Below the pieces are notes generated by a model. That model was given only the letters and a program-made list of their open reading frames with translations. It was not told the DNA's origin and did no database searches. This document shows positions 60,239-64,000 of a stretch of DNA of 64,000 nucleotides, piece after piece; position 1 is the first letter of the stretch, and the number at the start of each line of letters is the position of its first letter. Origin of the DNA: Anaerolineales bacterium (GTDB lineage Bacteria > Chloroflexota > Anaerolineae > Anaerolineales > Villigracilaceae); the NCBI GenBank assembly GCA_030680795.1, contig JAUXUL010000033.1, forward strand, positions 1 to 64,000, given 5' to 3'. Both the position numbers and the translations under genes were made by a program.

Positions 60239-60463
60239 ATGCCCCGCATTAAATGTCATTATATAGATTGCGTGTTCGTGGACGAAGGTTATTGCTCTGC
60301 CGCGGCGGTGGAATTAGACCCGGATACCGGCTGCGCCACCTACTCCCCCTCGGAAGCCGCCGTAGTTAAAGACGCTGACTGGGATGAAGAAGACGAAGAA
60401 TGGGAGGAAGAAGAATCCGACGAAGACGACGATGAATGGCTCGACGACGAAGACGAATTCTAG
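60239..60463 (+). CDS. Small Cys-containing acidic protein
   Basis: 74 residues: an N-terminal Cys module (C6, C11, C19, C32: KCHYIDCVFVDEGYCSA) that could bind metal, and a C-terminal half that is nearly all Asp/Glu. AGGAGG before the ATG. Follows VKOR by 12 bases, so they may work together. Similar short Cys modules occur in DUF1540-like proteins; the match is weak. Confidence 0.7.
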   Translation: MPRIKCHYIDCVFVDEGYCSAAAVELDPDTGCATYSPSEAAVVKDADWDEEDEEWEEEESDEDDDEWLDDEDEF

Positions 60464-60486
60464 TCCTTCGACCAGCTCAGGACCGC
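60464..60486. repeat. TTCGAC-family repeat right after a stop codon
   Basis: TCCTTCGACCAGCTCAGGAC starts at the base after the TAG of the acidic protein gene. Same family as the copies at 9118, 60684, 61412 and 61531. The rest of the gap to 60600 has a TTCTCTGCGCGAGG stretch and GATTGGAGATTAG-type low-complexity sequence. Confidence 0.7.
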
Positions 60487-60683
60487 TTCTTTTTTAACTG
60501 AAAATTGAATCCTACGAATAAAGCCTTCTCTGCGCGAGGAGGTTTTTTGATTCTATGTGGAGATTGAGGATTGGAGATTAGTGATTGGTAATTGGTAAGT
60601 GGTAATTAGGGGTCGAGAGGGGATTTGACGGCGAGGCCGCCGCGTTGTAATACATGAGTGTAGATCATTGTGGTTTTGACGTC

Positions 60684-60706
60684 CCTTCGACGAGCTCAGG
60701 GCATGC
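60684..60706. repeat. TTCGAC repeat, 23 nt, frameshifts the integrase near its end
   Basis: CCTTCGACGAGCTCAGGGCA and three more bases split LLGHK from [12 protein letters not shown]. In the interrupted frame it reads ACPELVEG and stops soon after, removing the catalytic Tyr. Confidence 0.85.
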
Positions 60707-61198
60707 CTTGTGTCCGAGGAGTTCCTGGATGGTGCGGATATCGTAGCCAGCCTGGAGGAGGTGAGTGGCGAAGGAGTGGCGGAGCGTATGAGGAGTAACG
60801 TGTTTATCTATGCTGACACGGCGGGATGCTTCCCTGATGGATTTTTGGGCGATCGATTCGTGGATATGATGGCGGCGGATGATGCCTGTACGTTTGTCTT
60901 TGGATATTTTTGGCGCAGGGAAAAGGTATTGCCAGATCCAGTCTTTATTCGCATTTTTGTACTTGCGTTCCAGGGCGTAAGGCAGATATACCGAGCCGAA
61001 GCCATCAGCAAGGTCTTTTTCGTGAAGGGATTTTACGTATCTTAAGTGGAGTTGTAGTGGTTGAATGAGTGAATCGGGAAGGATGGTGAATCGGTCGTTT
61101 TCACCCTTGCCATCTCTCACAATAATTTGATGATTGTCAAAGTCAATATCTTTTATACGCAGGCGCATACATTCCATGATGCGCAGTCCGCCACCGTA

Positions 61199-61235
61199 CA
61201 CACTTGCACCGCACTGCGGATGCAGTGCAGGTGTA
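61199..61235. repeat. Palindromic insert of about 33-36 nt in the integrase
   Basis: CACTTGCACCGCACTGC and its near-complement (matching if G-T pairs are allowed) code about 12 extra residues ([11 protein letters not shown]) between TNKLIAQ and [11 protein letters not shown]. Frame is kept. Different sequence from the TTCGAC family. Confidence 0.7.
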
Positions 61236-61411
61236 ACCTGGGCGATGAGTTTATTTGTTCCTGTGAGGTTGGCGATGAGGCGCTTGACCTCATCCTTTGA
61301 GAGAACGGTTGGGATGGTTTTGGATCGTTGAGGGCGAAGTTCGGCAAGTTGGAGTTCGTCAAGTTCGATGTGAAGGACATGTCGGTAGAGGAAGAGGATG
61401 GCGCTGAATGC

Positions 61412-61437
61412 TTCACTTCGACAGGCTCAGTGCAGGG
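61412..61437. repeat. TTCGAC repeat, net +23 nt, frameshifts the integrase
   Basis: TTCACTTCGACAGGCTCAGT plus six bases replaces one expected codon between AASTQN and [13 protein letters not shown]. In the old frame it reads PCTEPVEV. Confidence 0.85.
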
Positions 61438-61530
61438 ATTTTGGGTGGAGGCGGCGACTTGCTGTTTGGTTGCGAGGTGGGTAAGGTATTGTCCAATTTC
61501 AGGAATGCCTATTTCTTTTGGGTGGCGTTT

Positions 61531-61554
61531 GACATTCGACGGGCTCAGTCCAGG
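61531..61554. repeat. TTCGAC repeat, 24 nt, in frame in the integrase
   Basis: GACATTCGACGGGCTCAGTC plus four bases, coding eight extra residues (PGLSPSNV) inside ILFHN-KRHPKEIG, normally contiguous. Confidence 0.85.
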
Positions 61555-61617
61555 GTTATGAAAGAGGATGTAGTTTTTTACCCAGAGGATGTAGGTATCT
61601 TCGGTACGCGGGGAGTA

Positions 61618-61640
61618 GTCCCGCAAGGGGATGCTGCGCG
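61618..61640. repeat. 23-nt insert of a second kind, frameshifts the integrase near its start
   Basis: GTCCCGCAAGGGGATGCTGC plus GCG separates VLRIKH from YSPRTEDTY. Removing exactly these 23 bases rejoins the frames. The sequence is unlike the TTCGAC copies although the length is the same. Confidence 0.75.
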
Positions 61641-61754
61641 ATGTTTGATGCGAAGAACATCGCGGTATTGGTCGAGCAGTTTTTTATCCTGTGGAGCCGA
61701 CGTTCCCAAGGGGGATGTATTTTTTTGAGAGGCGGATGAATTTGATTGGGACAT

Positions 61755-62022
61755 TTTTGCCTTTCTGGTAAAATGGACACGTAATTTGTACATAGTATGT
61801 TAAACAAGTTCGCGCTGTATAACACCCCGCACAGGGGTATTTTACAACAAATCTTGCTGAACACATAGTTAGACCCCTTCCTTGCACAACAAGGTAAAAA
61901 GAAAAAATCTTAGGCGTGTGGGGGAAGTGTGTAGCACGCGAACTTACTGGTTATAAACGTTTCTTTGAAGCATGGTGTTCTGACTGCCATGCTATAATTT
62001 CGTCAAGGAATCCAATCAATTC
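61755..62022. other. Gap between the integrase remnant and the helicase gene
   Basis: Contains GTATAACACCCCGCACAGGGGTATTTTAC, a small CCCC/GGGG hairpin at about 61829-61851, and further AT-rich sequence without coding signal. Ends with a TATAAT box at 61993-61998, 25 bases before the helicase ATG. Confidence 0.5.
61993..61998 (+). promoter_or_regulatory. Candidate -10 box for the helicase gene
   Basis: TATAAT 24 bases before the ATG, with CAAGGAA as a weak ribosome-binding site. The best -35-like hexamer (TTGAAG) is 22 bases away, too far for a standard promoter. Confidence 0.45.
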
Positions 62023-64000
62023 ATGAATCTTTACGAAGCACTTGCTATGCACGTTGCCGAATGGCGACAGGATAATTACAAGCATGAGAAATATTCTGCA
62101 ATCGCAGAGATTTTGGAATGGGCGCAAAACCCTGATGTAAGCGCGTTTCGTTTACGCGCTCCGCAATTCCGCGCTTTGGAAACCTACTGGTATTTGCGAC
62201 TCAAGGAAAACACGCCTCACATTCTTGATTTATACAAGCAAGTCTTTACAAAAAACACCGAACGGCTTCACGCACTTGGAATGAATCATCCTGATTTGAT
62301 TGGTTATGCCGCCGATTATAGTTTTGATGATTTGATAAAGAAAATCCGTGAAGATGATGTATTCGTAAAACAATACAAACTCGAAGCCGTGCGCGAAACG
62401 ATTGCATTGGATTATCCGAGTTATATTCTTGCGTTGGCAATGGGAGCGGGGAAAACTGTTTTAATCGGCGCAATTTTCGCAAGTGAATTTGCAATGGCGC
62501 AGGAATATCCAAATCAAAAGTTTGTGGAAAATGCGCTGGTCTTTGCCCCAGGAAAAACCATCATTGAAAGTTTGCGTGAATTGGCTGAAATGCACTTTGA
62601 AGCAGTCTTGCCGCCGCGTTTCTATAAATCATTTGCCGCACAGTTGAAATTGACATTCACCCGCGATGGCGACCCTGATATTCCGATTATCGCGGGCAGT
62701 CAATTCAACGTGGTTGTGACGAATACAGAAAAAATCCGTATCCAAAAAGAAGATATTCGCAAGGCTTCTTTGGGAAAGATGTTTTCACAGAAAAGCGAAG
62801 ATGAAGCGAAAACTGAGATTGCAAACTTGCGTTTGCAACGAATTGCCAGCCTACCAAATTTAGCGATATTTTCCGATGAAGCCCATCATACTTACGGGCA
62901 GGAAATGGATAAAGACTTAAAGAAAGTCCGCAAGACAGTGGATTATTTGCATAACCCACATGCAGACGATTCAGGAAAACGCGAGAAACACGATACTAAT
63001 TTAATTTGCGTGGTCAACACCACAGGCACACCGTATTTCCAAAAGCAAGCATTGAAAGACGTGGTGATTTGGTACGGATTATCCGAAGGAATCCGTGACG
63101 GTATTTTGAAAGAACTTTCGGGAAATATCAAAGCCTTTGATTTTGAAGGCAATGTTCAACCTTATCTTGAATATGTGGTTGAAGATTTTTTCAAAGAATA
63201 TGGCAAAGTAACCTTGCCCGATGGCACACCTGCGAAACTCGCAATCTTCTTCCCGCAAACCGATGATGTTGGCGAATTACGCTGGATTGTGGAAAAGAAG
63301 ATGGTTGAGATGGGTTACTCCACCGATTTGATTCTTGAACATCACACATCACATGACGAAAAAGATGAGTTTGACCGTTTCCGCGCTTCTGCAAAACGAG
63401 TCGCATTGTTGGTGAGTCGCGGCGTGGAAGGCTGGAATATACCTGCTTTATTTGCTTGTGCGCTTGCTCGTAAACTGCAAAGCGGGGGGAATAACTTTGT
63501 CTTGCAAGCCGCCTCTCGCTGTTTGCGCCAAGTTCCAGACAACACAAAACCTGCACGTATTTATCTCTCGATGGATAACCGCGCAGTTTTGGATAACCAG
63601 TTACAAGAAAATTACGGAGAGTCAATTAGCGACTTGAACGAAGCACAGACTCGCAGTATGCGCGCCACAATCACATTGCGAAAAGTCAATATTCCGCCGC
63701 TGGTTATCAAGCAAAAAGTGCGGACAGTAACTCAGGTAAAAAATAAAGTACAGCCGCTTTCCTTGATACCAGTTAAAGGCTCAAGCCGCAAAACCATGAA
63801 AATGATTACTTTTACACTGGCGCGGCAATTATCGTCAGGCAAAGTATTACAGGAAGATGGCGAGTCAGTTGATGTCCAGATTGAAGGTGGAACGATAGAC
63901 TTGTTCAGCGCGGCGGTGGAGTTGGCAGGCAATTATCATCTCGTGCCGATGACTGTCTATCAGGAATTGAAGCGCATTTATTCAAAAGATGAAATCCCAT
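62023..64000 (+). CDS. DEAH helicase, type III restriction Res-like (3' end outside window)
   Basis: Open frame of 659 codons to the window edge, starting MNLYEALAMHVAEWRQDNYKH. SF2 helicase motifs: Walker A AMGAGKT with K144, motif II D285-E-A-H (SDEAHH), motif III-like TTGTP, and a motif VI-like QAASRCLRQ. The N-terminal ~120 residues precede the helicase core and are unlike classical Res. The frame is open at the end, so a nuclease domain may follow. Resembles type III restriction subunit R and related phage-defence helicases; no methyltransferase gene lies upstream, only an integrase remnant. Confidence 0.8.
   Translation, partial: MNLYEALAMHVAEWRQDNYKHEKYSAIAEILEWAQNPDVSAFRLRAPQFRALETYWYLRLKENTPHILDLYKQVFTKNTERLHALGMNHPDLIGYAADYSFDDLIKKIREDDVFVKQYKLEAVRETIALDYPSYILALAMGAGKTVLIGAIFASEFAMAQEYPNQKFVENALVFAPGKTIIESLRELAEMHFEAVLPPRFYKSFAAQLKLTFTRDGDPDIPIIAGSQFNVVVTNTEKIRIQKEDIRKASLGKMFSQKSEDEAKTEIANLRLQRIASLPNLAIFSDEAHHTYGQEMDKDLKKVRKTVDYLHNPHADDSGKREKHDTNLICVVNTTGTPYFQKQALKDVVIWYGLSEGIRDGILKELSGNIKAFDFEGNVQPYLEYVVEDFFKEYGKVTLPDGTPAKLAIFFPQTDDVGELRWIVEKKMVEMGYSTDLILEHHTSHDEKDEFDRFRASAKRVALLVSRGVEGWNIPALFACALARKLQSGGNNFVLQAASRCLRQVPDNTKPARIYLSMDNRAVLDNQLQENYGESISDLNEAQTRSMRATITLRKVNIPPLVIKQKVRTVTQVKNKVQPLSLIPVKGSSRKTMKMITFTLARQLSSGKVLQEDGESVDVQIEGGTIDLFSAAVELAGNYHLVPMTVYQELKRIYSKDEIP

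Follow-up and report, generated by a model that had tools for sequence, protein, structure and literature searches.

The described systems closest to the element analyzed here, designated A, are the GTAG-tagged REPs with TnpA-REP/RAYT, the CGTC-tagged repeats, the Rickettsia palindromic elements (RPE) and IS200/IS605. GTAG-tagged REPs are described as short imperfect palindromes, present in many copies, with a mismatch region in the stem (PMC3733652, PMC6006769, PMC8266576), and as often intergenic and sometimes intragenic (PMC3733652), all of which applies to A; unlike them, A has no GTAG tag, and none of 35 Y1 loci held a transposase gene flanked by A. The CGTC-tagged repeats resemble A in being small hairpins, also found inside genes, that have no dedicated transposase, but A has neither the CGTC tag nor a stem starting with AT, and the two are set apart on this published description (PMC3733652). 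Like A, RPE are palindromic DNA located in frame in conserved protein genes; however, they are 105-146 bp long and Rickettsia-specific (PMC2229807), whereas A measures 23-24 nt and was found in several phyla. IS200/IS605 elements are described with hairpin-defined ends and a short target (PMC8266576), features to which A can be likened, and no target duplication was seen for A; in contrast to them, A has no transposase gene of its own and showed no guide-target pairing in a shuffle test.

The host gene of the A copies considered below is an integron integrase. Inactive integron integrases are reported to be common (43% of 1,135 homologues; PMC3108266), and active ones to be costly and lost in culture (PMC3510236). 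A would be an element-driven route to loss of function in these genes, possibly a reversible one. Although the kind of element is known, such recurrent filling of particular positions in one gene family is unusual, and in the literature searched we did not find a description of the A core, its breadth or the reuse of integrase sites. The core strings TTCGACAAGCTCAG and CTGAGCCTGTCGAA were not found in that literature, a search confined to the main text of papers and therefore no proof of absence; within the same scope, the strings TTCGACAGGCTCAG, CTGAGCTTGTCGAA, PEPVEG and TTCGACTTCGCTCAG were not found either, and PELVEG matched in the text of one stem-cell paper.

An integron integrase gene with five short inserts

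The window, i.e., the whole 64,000-nucleotide stretch of DNA analyzed, contains at 60606-61754 an integron integrase gene (TIGR02249). A 178-residue fragment of it scored 259.6 bits against TIGR02249, just under the cut-off of 265, and the closest uninterrupted relative among the matches listed, from genome G075 (81% identity over fragment residues 1-166), scored 441.6 bits, above that cut-off. Integrase homologues were present in 116 of the 152 genomes of the family. The first-pass annotation had described a tyrosine recombinase reading in three successive frames and carrying short elements, three of them frameshifting and one of these located before the catalytic Tyr motif. Reading of the minus strand bore this out, and the insert coordinates proved correct to within a few bases when the edges were set against relatives (29 loci, L060-L088; a nucleotide alignment of the N-terminal part; and 87 readable ORFs). 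The features are collected in Table 1. A simple pattern, which is not the full attC model, matched no attC-type site in 60401-62400, and Rfam gave a single weak match in 60300-62300 (E 0.27).

Table 1. Coordinates of the integrase gene, its inserts and the neighboring A core in the window (a slash in a motif marks the point of insertion)
Feature	Position	Strand	Basis or remark
Gene for an integron integrase (IntI, a tyrosine recombinase); three inserts break the frame	60606..61754	-	TIGR02249 and frame reading
A copy, 23 nt, at site I, where GHK/DVKTT is split between its K and D codons; frameshift before the Tyr motif	60684..60706	-	Same site filled in C16, G024 and G029
C insert, 33 nt, keeps the frame; from a palindrome family abundant in some sister genomes	61202..61234	-	Relatives and letters
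A copy, 23 nt, frameshift	61414..61436	-	Alignment with relatives and letters
A copy of 24 nt that keeps the frame; ordinary 8-residue segment at this position in 5 of 87 relatives	61531..61554	-	Alignment with relatives
B insert, 23 nt, shifting the frame; each edge can be moved a few bases; plus strand from 61615 starts GTAG, small palindrome	61618..61640	-	Alignment with relatives
Fourth A core, not in the gene but directly behind the stop codon of a 74-residue ORF (60239-60463)	60467..60480	-	Core search

That several short inserts occur in one gene, as had been claimed, is real, but the five are of three kinds (A, B and C) and not of one. The three A inserts share the core CTGAGC-NN-GTCGAA on the coding strand. 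The exact core occurs 89 times in this genome, as against once for its reversed, non-complemented control, and four of the 89 cores fall in 60467-61548; together, these counts make the insert pattern more than chance.

The comparison with the 87 readable ORFs separated the insert positions. An insert of at least five residues was found in none of them at 61618, 61414 and 61202, and in one (L288) at 60684, while five (L074, L238, L270, L275 and L288) have eight residues at 61531. Extra segments of the same kind occurring as normal protein in relatives had been named beforehand as evidence against insertion, and they were encountered at 61531 only. These five relatives speak for ordinary protein length variation, with no element insertion involved, as the source of the extra segments. 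That explanation is highly improbable given that three inserts shift the frame, that the A core is found 89 times in the genome and that the 61618, 61414 and 61202 positions have no counterpart in the 87 ORFs. At 61531 the window segment has an intact A core, and its counterpart in L288 resembles a degenerate A. Both would be accommodated if A had inserted there long ago and come to encode a protein loop, and had inserted again more recently in the lineage of the window. The proposal that the inserts are assembly or sequencing artefacts takes its force from the draft state of the genome (54 contigs), and is almost certainly wrong, since a second contig and other genomes have A at these very sites.

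We infer that B and C are members of other small palindrome families, distinct from A. With up to three mismatches allowed, B turns up once more among the 152 genomes, inside a decayed integrase on contig C44 of the genome under study, and the C core is present in 41 of the 152, where the reversed controls gave 14 matches in total. Folding of C is strong (z -4.4). The C palindrome (GCGCTGCGGATGCAGTGCAGG and variants) was seen in 20 copies in G109 and 15 in G101, and here only once, inside the integrase.

The stretches between the inserts contain no further stop or frameshift and remain open. A piecewise comparison of 299 codons gave a dN/dS of 0.061 between the window gene and that of G075, a rough value because synonymous sites are near saturation. 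With G025 as the outgroup, codon positions 1, 2 and 3 showed 20, 10 and 47 changes on the window branch and 14, 3 and 47 on the G075 branch, counts that are rough for the same reason; the amino-acid changes numbered 20 and 13, respectively. Judged from these substitutions, purifying selection of the ordinary sort appears to have maintained the gene over most of its independent history. On the codon-position counts and the lack of other stops between the inserts, it was probably disabled late, and the frameshifts look late as well. The description of the gene as dead is likely to hold, but the damage looks late.

Two further integrases are worth describing in this context. The third integrase copy of this genome (L046, contig C24, 1.2-1.9 kb) is broken and has no A copy. 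Another integrase, in G006 (L244, contig C18), has several short inserts, one of them an A, with readable stretches in between.

Distribution and predicted hairpin of element A

A was found in 136 of the 152 genomes of the family, at 0 to 107 copies per genome. A cross-phylum scan of named genomes for CCTTCGACAGGCTCAGG returned at least 113 stretches. By our own arithmetic, chance alone would give about 30 exact matches to CCTTCGACAGGCTCAGG in 257 billion bases; therefore, a single match proves little. However, the 113 listed stretches (788 kb) held at least 179 cores with a 2- or 3-base loop, as against 0 for the reversed control, and at least 50 of them held two or more. The record titles among those 50 name Cyanobacteria, alpha-, beta- and gammaproteobacteria, Deltaproteobacteria, Bacteroidales, Cytophagales, Actinobacteria, Chloroflexi, Dadabacteria and Eremiobacterota.

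The coding strand of A can form a hairpin with a short outer stem, an internal loop of conserved GA/GA and, at its tip, a variable loop of 2-3 bases. GA pairs such as those in internal loops can be stable. In 172 cross-phylum contexts the bases at -2/+16 were CG in 90, TA in 36 and GC in 22, and those at -1/+15 were CG in 148 and GC in 17; in 49 contexts from the genome under study, -1/+15 was CG in 36 and AT in 6. When reduced to 83 distinct flank pairs, -2/+16 was Watson-Crick in 60, compared with 29.0 in shuffles (maximum 43), and -1/+15 in 77, compared with 54.5 (maximum 63). Since the -1/+15 pair is fixed by the search string, support for the stem rests on -2/+16. The -1/+16 register was also slightly raised (50/83 vs 41.1 shuffled). 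Base-pair covariation of this kind supports the predicted stem. Folding energy did not single A out (z about -1).

The flanks were tabulated as 49 distinct contexts from the 89 copies, a table that includes three copies of one larger repeat (L014, L018 and L054) and, as two contexts, a tandem pair (L051). In the three former loci A has long common flanks and rides within a larger dispersed repeat. The consensus before the hairpin in this genome is GC-rich and ends in YTGY. GTAG is absent from the foot of the A hairpin in that consensus, while insert B does start with GTAG, and the flank tables show no CGTC at the end of A.

Copies of A also interrupt unrelated genes. In a sample of 30 copies from this genome, namely the first 30 loci in contig order (L029 and L030 being the integrase of contig C16), 14 were inside ORFs of 90 residues or more, 2 at ORF edges and 14 between ORFs. 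Ten of these A-containing ORFs, selected for being open across it, were compared with Pfam; nine had a match, which was above the cut-off in eight: Mfd/TRCF, SURF1, an ABC transporter, thiamin pyrophosphokinase, Pirin, methionyl-tRNA synthetase, a CinA-type protein and a FAD-binding protein. In-frame reading through A was seen in L023 (519-2351, methionyl-tRNA synthetase), L002 (1-2052, Mfd), L012, L019, L004, L024, L005 and L028. The 12-base A core occurs in several phyla and in frame in essential-type genes, and the odd short peptides in many predicted proteins would be explained once its enzyme and target rule are known. A preference of the element for the integrase gene, which the first-pass annotation had suggested, is not the whole story, because A is dispersed genome-wide and lies in frame in the genes for Mfd, methionyl-tRNA synthetase and others.

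Site reuse and sharing of inserts among integrases

The 112 integrase loci fetched from among the matches listed (102.6 kb of gene) held 11 exact A cores, distributed over 6 loci, where 0.56 would be expected from each genome's own density, an expectation based on genome-wide density that overstates the excess if integrases accept inserts as freely as intergenic DNA does. The integrase of contig C44 (L043) had no tblastn hit and lies outside this set. A further locus, L288, has an A copy with a 3-base loop, and two A-like matches with one mismatch in other integrases (L267 and L298) were left out as likely chance. Any DNA that tolerates insertion probably has A at a higher density, so that some of the excess may reflect tolerance alone.

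The same positions were found filled more than once. At site I there are 23 nt in the window, an identical 23 nt in C16, 24 nt in frame in G024 and 24 nt in G029, whose gene is otherwise truncated. Site II (HQ/IIV) is filled in C16 and, by a different copy, in G004. Other A copies fill VK/DIDF in G058, K/GEK in G004 and QE/IQ in G006. A loose site I pattern matched in 82 of 400 genomes of the phylum, most of the matches being flanked by sequence that does not resemble an element, and among seven such loci inspected only that of G029 (L351) is an integrase. Regarding the target, AAG occupies -10..-8 in 13 of the 49 contexts from this genome, compared with a background of 1.8%. Uninterrupted integrases contain on the sense strand a mean of 3.8 AAGG and 0.9 AAGGAY per gene (86 genes), and a preference for AAGG-like targets would be enough to bring A repeatedly to the same codons.

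One could suppose that A inserts at random, without target preference, and that integrases tolerate inserts like intergenic DNA. Integrase loss is reported as common (PMC3108266), and 14 of the 30 sampled copies lie between predicted ORFs, which would place the density in tolerant DNA above the genome average used for the expectation of 0.56. We nevertheless regard random insertion as unlikely, since sites I and II were each filled in different genera by different copies and the AAG left flanks exceed their background. The idea of a local hot spot survives in a weaker sense, i.e., as an excess of cores in integrases and reuse of their sites across genera, and not as an exclusive preference for this gene.

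Two pairs of integrases within this genome share inserts. The loop variant of the 23-nt insert common to the window and C16 was seen only twice in the genome, and the uninterrupted relatives of the two genes (G075 and G027, respectively) have no insert at site I. The decayed integrase of C44 carries two inserts at the positions of the window: B, matching at 20 of 23 positions, and the 61531 insert, with one difference. Outside the inserts, its identity to the window is 0.579, as against 0.569-0.624 to five other homologues, and at 34 sites that distinguish the window from G075 it agrees with the window at 15 and with G075 at 19. As C44 is no closer to the window outside the inserts, one inserted ancestor is unlikely, and common descent of the inserts shared by the window and C44 was rejected on this identity. 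What remains is repeated insertion or conversion limited to the insert.

Short-tract gene conversion between paralogs, in place of repeated insertion, is a possible but doubtful source of these shared inserts; it concerns the sharing only and is compatible with the explanation given below. It would agree with the rare loop variant common to the window and C16 and with the good conservation of the site I flanks. Against it, those flanks are 84% and 89% identical between the window and C16, which is within the range of other relatives and leaves a long conversion tract at site I unsupported. In addition, C44 has two of the inserts of the window and is otherwise no closer to it than to other homologues, and the A sequences that occupy the shared sites in G024, G029 and G004 are different.

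Inserts of other repeat-like sequence were also seen, in frame, in the integrase loop before the RRHH motif (alignment column 252) in L239, L237, L238, L241, L242, L281, L297 and L307. The longest, in L239, reaches up to 128 residues and includes an A copy.

Candidate route of insertion

We consider it likely that A is a small non-autonomous REP/RPE-like hairpin that is moved in trans and prefers AAG(G)-like targets, with integrases accumulating copies. The net length of the A inserts in integrases is 23 or 24 nt, and no target duplication was seen at them. By analogy with TnpA-REP as described in PMC8266576 and PMC6006769, the likeliest route is that a Y1/HuH-type single-strand transposase would act in trans on the single-stranded A hairpin, which would then be joined after AAG(G)-like targets. 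Copies of 24 nt can keep the frame and may be tolerated as short peptides, and those of 23 nt would shift it. The gathering of copies in integrases would be due to the loss of these genes being tolerated or even favored, together with conserved codons (GHK/D and VK/D) that make good targets.

A different function for the hairpin can also be imagined, in which it enters and leaves a few integrase positions precisely and serves as a reversible off-switch for cassette shuffling. From such a switch would follow the undecayed reading between the inserts, the purifying selection, the reuse of sites across genera and the inserts common to paralogs whose similarity is otherwise no more than average. 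All the same, we hold it to be very unlikely.

No cognate transposase was found: among 35 Y1 loci (30 of the matches in 14 A-rich genomes and five in this genome), none has a Y1 gene with its own A copies on the flanks. These loci hold five A-like copies, and the ones beside Y1 genes are located within another repeat. Three Y1 proteins of this genome, when compared with the 113 listed cross-phylum stretches, gave one match (E 0.74). IS608-like guide-target pairing was not supported by shuffling: the observed score was reached in 4746 of 5000 shuffles for this genome, and in 3686 of 5000 for this genome and the family together. Single-position signals at -7/-6 and -8/-7 are, we think, the product of two spacing variants.

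In two loci (L369 in G101 and L372 in G144), a repeat belonging to a Y1 transposase gene (AATCCCGAAGGGATGA) is arrayed 5' of that gene, and one of the repeat units is split by a 24-nt A copy. The possibility that A is the end of a Y1 insertion sequence was considered for them and rejected because A lies inside the arrayed repeat that belongs to the gene; L371 is similar. In both genomes A is located inside GAAGG/GATGA of the repeat, with empty copies of the repeat adjoining it.
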